IMG/VR virus record: IMGVR_UViG_3300035698_013502
Location: 1-20,346 of that record
Direction: 5' to 3' (one strand)
Length of the DNA: 20,346 bases
Origin: a virus
Under the pieces are notes generated by a model. The model ran no database searches. It was not told where the DNA came from and worked only from the letters and a program-made list of their open reading frames with translations. Numbering within the stretch: the stretch's first letter is position 1; each line of letters starts with the position of its first letter. Below are positions 6,284 through 13,928 of this stretch, in pieces. A program made the position numbers and the translations under genes.

Positions 6284-6386
6284 AAGGGATAAATTTATTC
6301 ATTCCCTTTTGTAATAGGACGAATGGTTTCACCCCAATTTGCCATGTCGTGCCTGAGATTGTAGGGGCAATTTTACAGGTTAGGCA
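6284..6386 (+). promoter_or_regulatory. Structured leader of the virion operon
   Basis: Before the first virion gene is a hairpin AAGGGA 6284-6289 with TCCCTT 6303-6308 followed by TT. A second helix TGCCT 6350-6354 with AGGCA 6382-6386 encloses TGTA 6360-6363 with TACA 6374-6377, and TTGCC 6339-6343 can pair with GGCAA 6366-6370 in that loop. No good plus-strand -35/-10 pair was found in 6241-6300, so late transcription may use a phage factor or read-through. Confidence 0.3.
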
Positions 6387-6392
6387 TTATAT

Positions 6393-7298
6393 ATGGCATT
6401 GGATGATAAGAAACGAAAGAAACGTTTAAGAGATATTGAAATTAATGAAGTATCCTGGGTAGATCGTCCTGCAAATCAAATCCCGTTCCTTTTCTGGAAG
6501 CAAGCTGATATTGAATCAGTTGATTTGAATAAAACTGATACTAAATTAGATATTTCTTTTTCAACCAAAGGCACTCCTGACAGTACAAAAATAACAGTCA
6601 ATGGTTCTAAAGTAGATGCTAGTTATTTCAGTTTGTATTATTCTCCCATTTCTGGAACAGATAACATTTCTTTAGGTTGTGAATACACAGTAAAAGCGAA
6701 GGGTGAATCTAATGGTGGATTTAGTGCTTCTCGCACCTATTCACTTTATAAAAACGTAGAACAGGGAAAACAATCTATTTCTGAACAAAAGGAATTTATT
6801 GAACCTGATGCTAATGATATTGAAACTATTACAGAATTTTTAGGTGAGCCTGTTGAGGATATTGATGCTCCACTGGCAAAAGCCCTATCGACACAAATTA
6901 CATTGATGAAATCTTACATGGATGCTTGTCCTGAAGATTTTTTAACTGCAATAAAGGATATTGTAAAACTTGCTTCAACTGCTGAAATTGTTGGGGAAGT
7001 TGAAACAGTGGAGAAAAAAGAAGTGACTGAAAAGGAAACGAAAGAAGTAAAAGAAACTAAAGAAGAAGTAAAAGAGGTAACACAAACGGTAGAGCAGACA
7101 ATTGATGTGAATGATTTAACTTCTAAAATTGTAGATGGAGTCATGTCTAAAATCAATGAACTGCAAGCTTTAAAAGAGAAGGAAACCAAAGAGGCGGAGG
7201 AAACAAAACCTGCTGCTGTTGACGATGAGGTTAGTCCTGAAGAAGCTGCCCAAATTTTAGCGGATGCCGTGAGTGAGGCAATAGAAGAGTCTAATTAA
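6393..7298 (+). CDS. XkdF-like N-terminal motif / scaffold-like protein with inserted beta domain
   Basis: This 301-residue protein sits immediately before the major capsid gene. Residues 19-36 contain EVSWVDRPANQIPFLFWK, the hallmark N-terminal motif of XkdF-like phage capsid-maturation proteins. Residues about 48-122 form a Thr/Ser/Gly-rich beta domain that looks Ig-like. The remainder is acidic and helical: residues 145-195 are mixed helix, 205-265 a Lys/Glu-rich coiled coil and 270-300 an acidic alanine-rich tail, as in scaffolding proteins. Serine-protease catalytic residues are not evident. It probably acts as a scaffold or combined assembly factor inside the prohead. The start at 6393 has only a weak site (AGG at 6382-6384). 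No other prohead protease is visible in the window. Confidence 0.65.
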   Translation: MALDDKKRKKRLRDIEINEVSWVDRPANQIPFLFWKQADIESVDLNKTDTKLDISFSTKGTPDSTKITVNGSKVDASYFSLYYSPISGTDNISLGCEYTVKAKGESNGGFSASRTYSLYKNVEQGKQSISEQKEFIEPDANDIETITEFLGEPVEDIDAPLAKALSTQITLMKSYMDACPEDFLTAIKDIVKLASTAEIVGEVETVEKKEVTEKETKEVKETKEEVKEVTQTVEQTIDVNDLTSKIVDGVMSKINELQALKEKETKEAEETKPAAVDDEVSPEEAAQILADAVSEAIEESN

Positions 7299-7323: not shown

Positions 7324-8406
7324 ATGTTAAAAAGCGAGTTAGAAGCTATTGCAAAGGGGCTAAAAAGTTCTCTTGGTAATAGTATTAAGAAGAAAAATTC
7401 AAAGGAGGTTCGTAAGTCTACCAGTACGCCAGATATTGAAGTAATTAAGGAAAATGTATCTCTTAGTAAGTATATGAGAGGAGCAATTTTTAATACATGG
7501 ACGGGTGCAGATGATGAGTTAGCTCTTTATAAAGCACTTGGTCAAGATGTTGGCAATAGAGGTGGATTTCTCGTTCCTGAGCAATTAGCGAGTGGTATTG
7601 TTGAATTGCTAAAAGACAAGGCGAAAGTCAGAAGTATGCCCGGCGTTAAGACGATTACAATGACGGGTGATAAAATGAAGTTTAACACTGTTAGTTCTGG
7701 TCCTAGTATTTCTTGGGGTAGCGAAAGTGGTACTATCGCAGAAGATACGGGTCTTGGATTTGCACAGGAAACCCTAGAAACTCATAAGGCCGTTTGTTTG
7801 TACAAAATGTCTCGTGAGCTTCTTGATAATGCTAATCCAAGTGTCGATGCGATTCTTCGTATGGAACTTGCAGATGCGTTGGGGTTGGAAGAAGATAAGG
7901 TAGCACTTCAGGGTGTTGGCGGAACTCAGCCAGTTGGGATTTATTATAATCCTCGCGTTGTTTCTACTGATCTTTCTGGTGTTCTTGGCATTGATGATTT
8001 GAAAGATGCTCTTTATAATTTGCGTCTTCAGAATACTGAAGTCAATGGCTGGATTGCCCATCCTCGAACAGTTAATACCTTAGCCCAATTGAAGGATTCT
8101 CATGGCCGTTATATGTTTGGTCAGGGACCGGGCGAATCTGGTATTTCTAATCTTTGGGGAGCTCCGCTTGCCAATACTACTCAGATAGCCATTACTGGTT
8201 ATCCTTCGTCAACCGAATCATATATGATTGGTGGAGATTGGAGTCAGTTAATTATCGGTGAGAAACCGGGTATCCGTATTGAAACCTCAACTGAAGCTGA
8301 TACTGCTTTTGCAGCCGATCAGGTTTGGTTGAAACTTGTCAAGCATGTTGGCACATTGCTTAGACATCCACAAAGTTTTGCTGTCATTAAGGGAATCCAA
8401 GCTTAA
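7324..8406 (+). CDS. Major capsid protein (HK97 fold)
   Basis: This 360-residue protein forms the icosahedral shell. The sequence follows the HK97-family pattern: a short helical N-terminal arm (residues 1-70, basic), then GGFLVPEQLASGIVELL, the N-arm/E-loop region with TITMTGDKMKF and SWGSESGTIAEDTGL, the spine-helix region SRELLDNANPSVDAIL, LADALGLEEDKVALQG with GGTQPVGI, and the C-terminal part ending VGTLLRHPQSFAVIKG. The strong ribosome site TGGAGGG precedes ATG 7324 at good spacing, suiting high expression. The delta-domain-like N terminus is short, in line with a separate scaffold protein encoded upstream. A terminator follows the next gene. Confidence 0.92.
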   Translation: MLKSELEAIAKGLKSSLGNSIKKKNSKEVRKSTSTPDIEVIKENVSLSKYMRGAIFNTWTGADDELALYKALGQDVGNRGGFLVPEQLASGIVELLKDKAKVRSMPGVKTITMTGDKMKFNTVSSGPSISWGSESGTIAEDTGLGFAQETLETHKAVCLYKMSRELLDNANPSVDAILRMELADALGLEEDKVALQGVGGTQPVGIYYNPRVVSTDLSGVLGIDDLKDALYNLRLQNTEVNGWIAHPRTVNTLAQLKDSHGRYMFGQGPGESGISNLWGAPLANTTQIAITGYPSSTESYMIGGDWSQLIIGEKPGIRIETSTEADTAFAADQVWLKLVKHVGTLLRHPQSFAVIKGIQA

Positions 8407-8425: not shown

Positions 8426-8938
8426 ATGAAAGGTATAATTGCTGAAAGTCGTTTCGCATGTTTAGCTATCAACGCTGCAACTGGAGCCACTGGTTCTGAT
8501 CTCATTCTCAATGAAGTGGATTGTGGTGGGGCAGAAAATGGTACTCTTGTTATAGTACTTCAGAATACTGCATCGAGTGATGTTGCAAATCTTGAAGTAT
8601 GGACTTCAATGGCAAGTGATTTTTCCAATTCTAGTGGAACTCAACTTAGTACAGTAACATCTGATGGAACTCGAATTGTACTCATTGCTTCTGATGCTAA
8701 TGATGGTAATGCGTATATGCAAGGTGTTTTAAATGCTGCTATGTCTGATCTTACTATTACAACTGGTACAGTTTCTAATATGTATGAGGATGGTATGTAT
8801 GTTTTTGATTGTCCTAATGTTGCTCGTTATTTGAATGTACAGTATGATAGTGATGGTACAGGTAGTACTATTTCTGCTGTGTTTATTGGTCGTAATCTTG
8901 CTGAAGTTCCTTGGACTTCAGAAAGATCAGCTTATTAA
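8426..8938 (+). CDS. Probable capsid-associated beta-rich protein (170 aa)
   Basis: It starts at ATG 8426 behind GGGAGGTGAG, 20 bases after the capsid gene, and encodes 170 residues rich in Ala, Ser, Thr and Gly with alternating beta strands (GTLVIVLQNTASSDVANLEVW, shown here only in part, and ARYLNVQYDSDG). It has no signal peptide or membrane segment. Position, composition and tight linkage with the major capsid gene suggest a decoration or minor capsid protein. Its end (ARYLNVQY...VFIGR) resembles in layout the end of the protein at 10391-10771, so the two may share a fold. No family name can be given. Confidence 0.6.
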   Translation: MKGIIAESRFACLAINAATGATGSDLILNEVDCGGAENGTLVIVLQNTASSDVANLEVWTSMASDFSNSSGTQLSTVTSDGTRIVLIASDANDGNAYMQGVLNAAMSDLTITTGTVSNMYEDGMYVFDCPNVARYLNVQYDSDGTGSTISAVFIGRNLAEVPWTSERSAY

Positions 8939-8955: not shown

Positions 8956-9002
8956 ATCATAGGGACTGTTTGGGTCTCCTTTCCAGTCCCTATGATATTT
9001 TT
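8956..9002 (+). terminator. Intrinsic terminator after the capsid genes
   Basis: A 13-bp perfect stem ATCATAGGGACTG (8956-8968) with CAGTCCCTATGAT (8984-8996) and a 15-base loop is followed by ATTTTT. It lies 17 bases after the stop of gene 8426-8938. It would allow strong capsid-gene transcription and weaker read-through into the genes behind it. Confidence 0.85.
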
Positions 9003-9010
9003 GATAATCA

Positions 9011-9093
9011 AATATTGTTGATATAAGGTTTAAGATTTTGGAAAACCCATCTGCTTAAACGGCTTTTACAACAATATTGTTAGATTGGGTTTT
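9011..9093 (+). ncRNA. Candidate pseudoknotted intergenic RNA element
   Basis: AATATTGTTG 9011-9020 pairs with CAACAATATT 9069-9078 (10 bp). Inside it GTTTAAG 9028-9034 pairs with CTTAAAC 9054-9060. The apical loop holds AAAACCCATCT (9042-9052), which is complementary to AGA plus TGGGTTTT at 9082-9093 outside the helix, forming a pseudoknot or a competing helix. It lies between the terminator and the next ribosome site (GAAGGA 9095-9100). No ORF is present. Function is unknown. Confidence 0.45.
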
Positions 9094-9108
9094 TGAAGGA
9101 TTTATATT

Positions 9109-9798
9109 ATGGCTACAACTGCTATTGGAACTGACCGGCAACAGGGTTCCGCGATGGAAAAATATCCCGATGCTGTTTTTATGCGGGATGGTAAAAATTT
9201 ATACTTTGGAAATGATGGAGATGCTTCTATTAATTTTGATGGTTCTACCGTAGTTCTTGGTGGAACATGGGTTATTGGTGGGGAAGCTTTTACTTTATCT
9301 GATACCACTACTCTTGCATTTGGTAATGCTGCTGATGCAACTATTGCTTGGGATGGATCAAACGTAGTCCTCGGTGGAGTATGGGATTTGGCTGGAGGGG
9401 ATATTGAACTTTCTGATACTCAACAGCTTCAGTTTGGTGATACTAGCGATGCTACTATTACTTGGGATTCTGCTCGTTTAGCATTAGGTGGAGTATGGGA
9501 TTTAGCAGGGGATGACATAGAACTTTCTGATACTCAGCAGTTTCAATTTGGTAATGATAGTGATGCAACAATTGCTTGGGATGGAACTACTATGGTTCTT
9601 GGGGGTACTTGGATTTTAGGCGGGTCTGATCTCGTTATATCTGATACTACCAATTTATCCTTCGGTGATACTGCTAATGTAACTCTTACTTGGAATGGTT
9701 CTGCTTTAATTATAACAGGATTACCCACATCTAATCCTAGCGTTACTGGCGGATTATATCTTGCAAATAATTCTGATGTTACTATGTCAACAAGTTAA
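9109..9798 (+). CDS. Tandem-repeat beta protein, probable virion fibre or decoration (229 aa)
   Basis: The protein is built of five repeats of 38 residues starting at about residue 25 (F33, F71, F109, F147 and F185 are equivalent). The repeat reads roughly LSDTxxLxFGNxxDATIAWDG followed by xxVLGGxWDLAGGDIE. Repeats 2 to 4 are the most alike. Each unit probably gives a few beta strands, stacking into an extended solenoid or trimeric fibre. 'DTxxLxFGxxxDxxIxwDG' repeats are known from phage fibre-like proteins. The N terminus (MATTAIGTDRQQGSAMEK) and the last 24 residues are non-repetitive and may serve as attachment and tip. ATG 9109 follows GAAGGA. Location among head genes favours a capsid fibre. 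Confidence 0.65.
   Translation: MATTAIGTDRQQGSAMEKYPDAVFMRDGKNLYFGNDGDASINFDGSTVVLGGTWVIGGEAFTLSDTTTLAFGNAADATIAWDGSNVVLGGVWDLAGGDIELSDTQQLQFGDTSDATITWDSARLALGGVWDLAGDDIELSDTQQFQFGNDSDATIAWDGTTMVLGGTWILGGSDLVISDTTNLSFGDTANVTLTWNGSALIITGLPTSNPSVTGGLYLANNSDVTMSTS
9181..9720 (+). repeat. 114-bp coding tandem repeat, about five units
   Basis: Units of 114 bases start at about 9181, 9295, 9409, 9523 and 9637. The best-conserved piece is GGTGGAGTATGGGATTT, identical at 9372 and 9486 (114 bases apart), followed by nearly the same GAACTTTCTGATACTCA. The DNA match between units 2, 3 and 4 is closer than to the outer units, which suggests recent expansion in the middle. Confidence 0.75.
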
Positions 9799-9889: not shown

Positions 9890-10246
9890 ATGGCTTATAT
9901 TTTTGAACCGGAAGAAGCAACTGTATTAATTAGAATTTTACCTAATCATTATGTACGAATTAATGAGGAGTTAATAGCCCCTCAAAAATCAGTAGAGTTA
10001 AATGATCAGGGAAATAAAGTTATAGTTTGGGATAAGAAATCCGCAGAGGTTTGGGTGAGTCAGAAAGTAGCTCGTGAACTTACTACTTCAGGTGAAAATT
10101 TTAAGGGTAATGAAGGGGAATCTCGTCAAGTTCAGCCGATTGCTGAATTTGTTGAAACAAGGGATAAACCCAAAACAGTTACTATTAAAACTACTAAAAC
10201 AACTGAAACAAAAGATACTACTGTGGGCATGAAGCCTACAGTATAA
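9890..10246 (+). CDS. Hypothetical virion-region protein (118 aa)
   Basis: ATG 9890 follows GAGGATGTAGAA. The first 65 residues look like a compact beta domain (EATVLIRILPNHYVRI, KVIVWDKKSAEVWV). From about residue 80 the chain is low-complexity, Lys/Thr-rich and probably disordered (KTVTIKTTKTTETKDTT). The protein has no cysteines and no membrane segments. The place among head genes suggests a minor virion component or assembly factor, but no family is recognised. Confidence 0.6.
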   Translation: MAYIFEPEEATVLIRILPNHYVRINEELIAPQKSVELNDQGNKVIVWDKKSAEVWVSQKVARELTTSGENFKGNEGESRQVQPIAEFVETRDKPKTVTIKTTKTTETKDTTVGMKPTV

Positions 10247-10259
10247 AAATTAAATAAAG

Positions 10260-10375
10260 CGTAGAAACCGTAATAGACATAGTGCCTTTGAGGATTTCTA
10301 CGAGTTGGGTAAGGCACGAAAGAAATGACCGAGAATAATAACTCAAATAACTCTTTCGTGTCAAATAGAAATCCT
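10260..10375 (+). ncRNA. Candidate pseudoknot / switch-like RNA upstream of gene 10391
   Basis: CGTAGAAA 10260-10267 pairs with TTTCTACG 10295-10302. The enclosed GTGCCTT 10282-10288 pairs with AAGGCAC 10311-10317 outside, giving an H-type pseudoknot. CACGAAAGA 10315-10323 pairs with TCTTTCGTG 10352-10360. AGGATTTCTA 10291-10300 is also fully complementary to TAGAAATCCT 10366-10375, which excludes the first helix. The ribosome site GGAGG begins at 10378, directly after the last helix. So two mutually exclusive folds exist right before a start codon. No known riboswitch class is recognised. Confidence 0.5.
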
Positions 10376-10390
10376 ATGGAGGGATGAAAA

Positions 10391-10771
10391 ATGGCGTGGA
10401 AGGGCAGTATAGAAAATGTAGCAATTGCTAATGATTCCACTGGTACTTTGGAAACAATAGATATTACTGAAGGGGCAAGATATCTTTGGGCAGAAATTGC
10501 TAATGATAATCATAAGGAATTTGATGTTTTTCAAGTCCAAATACGTCCACATGCAGATGCTAGTTATTTTACAATAGCTAGTGTAGCTGATGATTTTACA
10601 AATCATATTAAAGAACCCGTTCTAGGATGTTCTGCTGATTTGACTTCTCTTGCAAAAAATACATCAGCTTTATTGTGGATGAATGTTAAAGGAATTAATT
10701 CAGTTAGATTTCGAGCAAGTTCAGCATCAGCTAGTGATACTACTGCTGACGTGTATTGGAGCGTGAGATAA
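10391..10771 (+). CDS. Hypothetical beta-rich virion protein (126 aa)
   Basis: ATG 10391 follows ATGGAGGGATG at good distance. The 126 residues are beta-rich and contain TLETIDITEGARYLWAEI, FDVFQVQIRPHADASYF and the end SVRFRASSASASDTT before VYWSVR. The pattern of long strands, small residues and an aromatic end resembles the protein at 8426-8938. The stop TAA is followed directly by the next ATG. It is probably a decoration or head-fibre component; the exact role is unknown. A structured RNA element directly precedes its ribosome site and may affect its expression. Confidence 0.55.
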   Translation: MAWKGSIENVAIANDSTGTLETIDITEGARYLWAEIANDNHKEFDVFQVQIRPHADASYFTIASVADDFTNHIKEPVLGCSADLTSLAKNTSALLWMNVKGINSVRFRASSASASDTTADVYWSVR

Positions 10772-12767: not shown

Positions 12768-13928
12768 ATGGTAAAAAAAAGCAAAATTAAAAGATTAGAA
12801 AAAAAGTTGAAGGTATCCCATGTAGTTCCAGCAACTCCGGGAGCTTGCGGAATGTACGAAACAGCCAGAGAACTTGTTTTAGCTGAACGAAGGTTAGGAA
12901 TTAATGCTCATATAGTTGATCCTAGACCTACGGAAGAACAAGCAAAAGGTAAAAGTCAAAAACAAATAAAAAAAATTAAATGTCCTAAATGTAAAAGTGA
13001 TTTTGATATGATTCTAAGTGAAAGACCTATGCCACATGGACCTAAAGGGTGGACTGAGGATAGGGGAGTTAGCATTGCCCCACATTCGTTTTTATACGAA
13101 TCGGATGTTATTGTATCTCATAGTGGATTAGGTGATAATTTTAATGATTGTAATGTTCCTAGAATTCATGTTGCTCATGGGAGACCTAATAGCAGTTATA
13201 GAATTGAACAATCAGGACAAACTCCCATTTATTCAATTTATAAAAAAATGAATGATGATCCAAAATGGAAGGTGATGGTTACGCTTTGGCCTTCATTTAA
13301 GAAATACTGGGAATTGATTTTTAAGGATGTAAGAGCATTTAATTCATTTGTTGATTTGGATCATTGGCAAAGAACTGATGAATTATATGATTTTGGTGGG
13401 AAAAAAGGTGATGTTAATGTTGTTATCACTGATATATGGAGGATGGACAAAGATCCATTCCATGTTGTAAATGCGTTTGCTTTGTTTGCTGAAAAAGTAC
13501 CAAATGCTAAACTTCATGTATACGGATTAAGCCCAAATAGTAGGGGCAGGGATGTATTGTTTTATAGTTTGAATGAAAAAGGTTTTATGGGGGAAATGAA
13601 ACCCCATGTAGATGATTTAAAACCTATATATAGTGCTGCTGATATGCTGATAACTCCGCATAACATGGCAACAAGAACAGTACGAGAATCGTTAGCTTGT
13701 GGAACTCAATTAATAGCAGGATCAGGAAATCCGTTTACTTCTTATACTGCTGATCCAGAAGATTTAGAAGCTTACTCAAATGTAATGGAACGGGCTTCAA
13801 TAGATTGGAAAAACGATAAAGAAGCTTGTATTATAAGAAACCGTAAAATTGCAGAAAAGGAATTTAATGCAATGGATACGGCTCAACAATTTGTTAATTT
13901 ATTTAATGAGATAAGAGGGGTAGCATGA
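12768..13928 (+). CDS. GT4-type (GT-B fold) glycosyltransferase
   Basis: This 386-residue protein transfers a sugar from an activated nucleotide donor. The N-terminal Rossmann half begins VSHVVPATPGACGMYETAR (17-35) with the glycine-rich acceptor-side loop. The C-terminal half has DIWRMDKDPFHVVNAFALF (222-240), AKLHVYGL (247-254), the PIYSAADMLITP segment (286-297) and TVRESLACG with E307, equivalent to the donor-binding E-x-ACG motif of GT4 enzymes. Residues 53-80 form a Lys-rich insertion with one CPKC (C72, C75), half a zinc ribbon. There is no membrane segment. The start at 12768 has a weak site; the stop overlaps the next gene as ATGA. Lying within the structural operon, it may glycosylate virion proteins; DNA or host-surface sugars are alternatives. 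Confidence 0.8.
   Translation: MVKKSKIKRLEKKLKVSHVVPATPGACGMYETARELVLAERRLGINAHIVDPRPTEEQAKGKSQKQIKKIKCPKCKSDFDMILSERPMPHGPKGWTEDRGVSIAPHSFLYESDVIVSHSGLGDNFNDCNVPRIHVAHGRPNSSYRIEQSGQTPIYSIYKKMNDDPKWKVMVTLWPSFKKYWELIFKDVRAFNSFVDLDHWQRTDELYDFGGKKGDVNVVITDIWRMDKDPFHVVNAFALFAEKVPNAKLHVYGLSPNSRGRDVLFYSLNEKGFMGEMKPHVDDLKPIYSAADMLITPHNMATRTVRESLACGTQLIAGSGNPFTSYTADPEDLEAYSNVMERASIDWKNDKEACIIRNRKIAEKEFNAMDTAQQFVNLFNEIRGVA

Follow-up and report, generated by a model that had tools for sequence, protein, structure and literature searches.

The window, meaning the whole stretch of 20,346 bases analyzed here, represents a complete IMG/VR virus record and is a 20-kb fragment from an uncultured tailed phage. 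It carries an HK97-type major capsid gene with a head-tail adaptor gene on its 3' side, and further downstream a gap of 144 bases precedes the conserved gene of a 126-aa protein within the structural-gene cluster. Family searches returned zero matches for this protein. An AlphaFold2 model built with nine homologues yielded a confident β-sandwich, for which the best structure matches are uncharacterised proteins of uncultured phages and miscellaneous β-sandwiches. From gene position and predicted fold, we infer a role as virion decoration or fibre; gene 10391 is a probable virion-protein gene. The same cluster contains a well conserved glycosyltransferase-like gene (12768-13928), for which an alignment search matched 37 phage loci. 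The protein encoded at 9109-9798 consists of near-repeats of ~30-35 aa each (FGDTSDATITWDSARLALGGVWDLAG...) and is shorter in relatives.

The leader in the gap contains two helices, S1 with eight and S2 with seven perfect pairs, which cross and hence form an H-type pseudoknot; its loops measure 14, 6, and 8 nt. The knot ends ~73 nt 5' of the start codon. An alternative helix of 10 perfect pairs joins 10291-10300 (AGGATTTCTA) with 10366-10375 (TAGAAATCCT). All helices named in the initial annotation are thus present, with two refinements. The segment 10291-10300, described there as free to pair either way, is used completely by the alternative helix, but S1 shares only 10295-10300 of it; and the distance from 10375 to GGAGG (10378-10382) is two bases instead of three. 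All features are collected in Table 1.

Table 1 Features of the leader of gene 10391 and its neighborhood in the window
Feature	Position	Strand	Description
Major capsid gene	7324..8406		HK97-type
Gap	10247..10390		144 bases
S1 5' strand	10260..10267	+	CGTAGAAA, also listed as CGUAGAAA; covariation
Loop L1	10268..10281	+	3' end ACAUA; C four bases 5' of S2 in 7/7 (structural alignment)
S2 5' strand	10282..10288	+	GUGCCUU; invariant GU; pyrimidine-rich, anti-Shine-Dalgarno-like; pairs with Shine-Dalgarno in alternative fold
Competing duplex, upstream half	10282..10301	+	S2 5' strand, L2, and S1 3' strand; E -20.1, p 0.0005; also p 0.001
Loop L2	10289..10294	+	UGAGGA; separates S2 from S1
S1 3' strand	10295..10302	+	TTTCTACG, also listed as UUUCUACG
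Loop L3	10303..10310	+	3' end GGU (GGY in 7/7)
S2 3' strand	10311..10317	+	AAGGCAC; invariant AC; purine-rich, Shine-Dalgarno-like
Downstream hairpin, 5' arm	10313..10323	+	11 pairs with 10352-10362; overlaps S2 3' strand
Candidate short upstream ORF	10325..10387	+	MTENNNSNNSFVSNRNPMEG, stop; end 3 nt 5' of main AUG; unproven
Downstream hairpin, 3' arm	10352..10362	+	Pairs with 10313-10323
Competing duplex, downstream half	10365..10386	+	Includes UAGAAAUCCU and Shine-Dalgarno
Shine-Dalgarno	10378..10383	+	GGAGGG; 7 nt 5' of AUG 10391
126-aa protein gene	10391..10771	+	β-sandwich model, mean pLDDT 88.9; structural-gene cluster

The claim that these helices exceed chance holds. Among 2000 dinucleotide shuffles of the gap, 1.35% contained an H-type pseudoknot with two 7-bp stems, whatever its energy; none (0/2000) contained one matching the observed strength, and a Watson-Crick helix of at least 10 pairs appeared in 0.6%. 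When the knot is demanded to open S2 with GT, the observed strength is reached by at most 0.1% of shuffles in the gap of each of the seven genomes described below, the window again giving 0/2000.

Syntenic phages were sought with the capsid, 126-aa, and glycosyltransferase proteins. Six relatives were informative (L005, L007, L009, L010, L017, and L027), all showing the order 9890-homologue, gap, 10391-homologue; their 126-aa proteins are 39-52% identical to that of the window. The same pseudoknot occurs at the same place in all six gaps, and its stem sequences differ. Listed as S1 5', S2 5', S1 3', and S2 3', the strands are CGTAGAAA, GTGCCTT, TTTCTACG, and AAGGCAC in the window; CACCGCCC, GTATCCT, GGGCGGTG, and AGGATAC in L005; CCGAACGA, GTGTTTC, TCGTTCGG, and GAAACAC in L007; TCCAGGCC, GTATCCG, GGCCTGGA, and CGGATAC in L009; ACCTGTCC, GTACCTC, GGACAGGT, and GAGGTAC in L010; CACGGGAC, GTGCTCC, GTCCCGTG, and GGAGCAC in L017; and TTGTTGTC, GTATTCC, GGCAACAA, and GGAATAC in L027. 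Across these few sequences (n = 7, the window included), every one of the 105 base-pair cells is paired, and double-sided changes are found in 13 of 15 pairs (8/8 in S1, 5/7 in S2). The mean identity among S1 strands is 30-32%, so that pairing is maintained and sequence is not. S1 contains G-U pairs in L007, L009, L010, and L027; since these would be C-A mismatches on the opposite strand, the element acts as RNA of the gene strand.

S1 varies between 8 and 10 bp, L1 between 8 and 14 nt, and L2 between 2 and 6 nt. Constant across the seven genomes are the 7-bp length of S2 with its opening GU/AC, a C in L1 four bases before S2, and GGY at the end of L3. The window and L017 also have the loop sequences AATAGACAT and TGAG in common. 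A third helix between the GGY of L3 and an RCC after the knot is compatible by eye with all seven genomes and is left unclaimed because it would comprise just 3 bp.

A descriptor scan covered the window and contigs of the relatives (G003, G006, G007, G008, and G009 in full, and 20 kb of the 22 kb of G005) and located this type of leader once per contig, at the 10391 gene. The other, looser matches lack the conserved loop bases and fall inside ORFs or on different strands; the exception is G008, where a strong pseudoknot covers the start of the 6393 homologue (contig position 91288-91343). On both strands of 2.7 Mb, nine matches have both loop features, and six of the nine are the 10391 leader. 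A search of 50,697 phage genomes gave no cultured relative for the 126-aa gene or the glycosyltransferase and only distant capsid matches, and relatives were absent from bacterial genomes scanned for prophages. Several candidates were set aside: L002, with a 24-residue match, is an unrelated phage; L026 has a homologue of the 126-aa gene in a different gene order and without the leader; L024 and L025 lack the gene; L074 has the capsid gene and a different downstream region; and L032, the most distant syntenic genome, fits solely with an L2 of 25 nt and is excluded from the count. Judged from comparative sequence analysis, the pseudoknot leader is a real, uncatalogued RNA element conserved at one position of the late cluster in this phage group.

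The second part of the architecture is the competing helix. It is longer than the initial annotation had proposed, the 10-bp stretch being its lower half: 10282-10301 and 10365-10386 form a near-continuous single helix of -20.1 kcal/mol (p 0.0005 against shuffles), which is present in the nested minimum-energy fold of the window. It contains CCUUU paired with GGAGG and hence covers the Shine-Dalgarno sequence (SD); as it extends through CCTTT (10285-10289), S2 is disrupted too. L009 shows the duplex in the same register (8663-8679 with 8728-8745, -26.7 kcal/mol, p 0.001). In L005, it is weak (p 0.096, and p 0.023 against the last 30 nt), and in L007, L010, L017, and L027, that is, four of the seven genomes, no SD-masking duplex was found. 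Fisher combination over all seven genomes gives 1.8e-4, in which the window's own p is not independent, since the window suggested the hypothesis, whereas those of the relatives are; a restricted test against the last 30 nt only, with the window excluded, gives 2e-3. In the window, L009, and L005, no start region among 9-18 others from the locus is a better partner for the leader than its own. L007, L009, L017, and L027 can form a local second pseudoknot whose pairing involves the SD or bases beside it, so that the ribosome site is probably hard to reach in most relatives, by varied means.

The covariation test proposed at the outset therefore has a divided outcome: S1 and S2 covary in 7/7 syntenic genomes, but the competing helix recurs convincingly in one relative only. 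Likewise, of the proposed switch or timing element, structured RNA at the start site stands; as a general property of the group the competing helix does not, being convincing in L009 alone, weak in L005 (p ~0.02-0.1), and absent in 4/7. The knot is the conserved part, and a switch is supported in some lineages only; for the window's lineage, we infer it.

It is about evenly balanced, in our judgment, whether the leader RNA acts in cis on translation initiation of gene 10391; the element probably controls timing or amount of the 126-aa protein. The knot would form first, during transcription, and would hold the anti-SD-like S2 strand GUGCCUU against the purine-rich, SD-like AAGGCAC. If the knot opens or is not kept in place, the S2-L2-S1 segment would pair with UAGAAAUCCUAUGGAGGGAU, burying the SD. 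The knot would be the ON state with an accessible SD and the long helix the OFF state in the window, L009, and probably L005, and the second pseudoknot that follows the conserved knot in L007, L009, L017, and L027 may mask the SD or its edge. A candidate trigger is a phage protein that reads the conserved loop bases, perhaps the product of gene 10391 itself; other candidates are folding kinetics and ribosome loading. When each pseudoknot is charged a constant 9.6 kcal/mol, itself a rough value, the knot state and the best nested fold lie 0.2-5.7 kcal/mol apart by rough estimate (knot versus nested, -30.9 and -35.7 kcal/mol in the window, -46.2 and -51.9 in L009, -48.8 and -44.1 in L010). These rough modeled energies would fit bistability. 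The masked fold of the window is estimated to be ~5 kcal/mol more stable than the knot fold, meaning that the knot would prevail only with the help of kinetics or a partner.

Among known RNA families, the gap matches none. With the gathering scores of the Rfam 15 covariance models, no match was found in the window, and only chance-level hits (E 3-8) occurred in 10150-10450; the relatives' loci gave tRNAs only. The initial statement that no known riboswitch class is recognizable is borne out. A small-molecule riboswitch is highly improbable here: the compact pseudoknot, conserved loop bases, and SD-masking alternative do resemble translational riboswitches, but the leader always precedes the same structural-cluster gene, never a metabolic gene, in the genomes scanned, and Rfam riboswitch models match none of it. 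The SAM-II and preQ1 classes are translational riboswitches built on an H-type pseudoknot and coupled to SD access. The 10391 leader shares with them a pseudoknot tied to SD access and differs from them in having neither an Rfam match nor a metabolic gene context. An HDV-like self-cleaving ribozyme was considered and rejected, as the nested double pseudoknot is missing and no Rfam ribozyme matches; an HDV-like P3/L3 insertion, reaching from the P2 5' strand to the P1 3' strand, is ruled out because the corresponding L2 of 2-6 nt is too short.

Translational operators come closer. The pseudoknot of the ribosomal protein S15 (rpsO) operator exchanges with another fold near the ribosome site. The likeness to the 10391 leader lies in a pseudoknot serving as translational operator, the difference in gene and repressor being cellular in the S15 case. 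The S15 operator is mentioned in a 2010 review, according to which T4-type gene 32 perhaps has the sole viral pseudoknot that autoregulates translation (PMC3014915). In T4, gp32 blocks translation by binding to a pseudoknot located 67 nt 5' of its own start codon (PMC3014915). By working principle, this operator appears to be the nearest analog: as in T4, T2, and RB69, an H-type pseudoknot lies in a phage mRNA leader ~70 nt 5' of the start codon, and the 10391 leader is thought to act on translation as the gene 32 operator does. It differs in occurring in other phages, in its S1 of 8-10 bp and L1 of 8-14 nt, in the SD-masking helix of some members, and in its gene, which encodes a structural-cluster β-sandwich protein instead of the single-strand DNA-binding gp32 and gives no match to such a family. 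Since the gene differs and binding is putative, membership in the gene 32-type operators is not claimed. No description of the 10391 leader element was found in the open-licence literature.

Taken literally, the analogy would mean that translation of the downstream gene is repressed by a phage protein bound to the pseudoknot, perhaps the one that this gene encodes, with the strand exchange at the SD being incidental. The T4 precedent (PMC3014915) speaks for such repression, as does the fact that the conserved part is the pseudoknot, with invariant bases a protein could read (GU/AC of S2, the C of L1, and GGY at the end of L3). However, the 126-aa protein is modeled as a β-sandwich of no recognised RNA-binding family, no repressor candidate emerged, and the SD-masking pairings in the window and L009 are improbable by chance. 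We consider this repression unlikely.

The sequences flanking the knot bear on two further explanations. An A/T-rich linker lies 5' of S1 in most genomes, and the preceding unit ends in hairpins in the window, L005, L007, L009, and L010. A cut or transcription start in the linker would make the pseudoknot a 5'-terminal block to decay, with the hairpin after the previous gene protecting the other 3' end; a parallel is the RNase E cut at -71 of T4 gene 32 mRNA, beside its pseudoknot (PMC3014915). Such end protection is rather improbable, as it accounts neither for the invariant bases in the loops nor for SD masking in the window, L009, and L005, nor for the local SD knots in L007, L009, L017, and L027. 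On the other side of the knot, RTGRCC occurs 7-10 nt after S2 in 6/7 genomes (AUGACC in the window, RUGGCC in five others), and the S2 3' strand could serve as SD of a short ORF; ribosomes translating it would terminate at the main start and thereby open the structure downstream. The ORF stops 3 nt before the main AUG in the window and 1 nt before it in L007. Yet L027 has no start codon at that site, in L009 and L017 the ORF continues into the main gene in another frame, the peptides are dissimilar among genomes, and GGCC doubles as part of a hairpin in several of them. Coupling through a leader peptide is accordingly very doubtful.

Further elements were observed elsewhere in these phages. 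The leader of gene 9109 (9007-9094) contains a second, different pseudoknot-like motif, with an outer stem 9011-9020/9069-9078, an inner stem 9028-9034/9054-9060 followed by CGGCTT, and an inner loop (9041-9049) that pairs with 9086-9094 immediately 5' of the SD. This layout recurs with altered stems in L006, L007, L009, L017, and L032, several of which keep TTCTGG and GGCTT. At 8956-8996, 3' of gene 8426, lies a terminator-like 13-bp hairpin with a loop (TCTCCTTTC) resembling the 16S anti-Shine-Dalgarno; comparable loops occupy the same position in L005, L017, L027, and L032. At 6330-6400, the start codon of gene 6393 can, by eye, pair upstream (TGCCATGT with ATATGGCA) in a pseudoknot-like layout. 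In L010, two leaders (7725-7785 and 8825-8890) share a near-identical stretch of ~60 bases (TAGGCACATAGCTAAAGGGTGAGGG...), perhaps a shared promoter or terminator. A search for a shared phage promoter motif 5' of S1 did not establish one; a repeat of ACAATCGAAYACG ahead of two late genes is confined to L005.

Other late genes of the phage group also seem to have pseudoknotted leaders. We tentatively propose, as a possibility short of a probable one, that distinct pseudoknotted leaders, one per late gene (at least 6393, 9109, and 10391), determine at the level of translation when, or in what ratio, virion proteins are made, the 10391 leader being bistable and switching by strand exchange, so that its own anti-Shine-Dalgarno strand is either concealed or released. 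The 10391 leader suggests that further pseudoknot leaders exist in phage late operons outside Rfam. As a strongly covarying pseudoknot leader before a structural-cluster gene of uncultured phages, unrelated to the T4 type, it would provide a second case independent of gene 32, and a compact, testable model for how DNA phages set the amounts of virion proteins post-transcriptionally.
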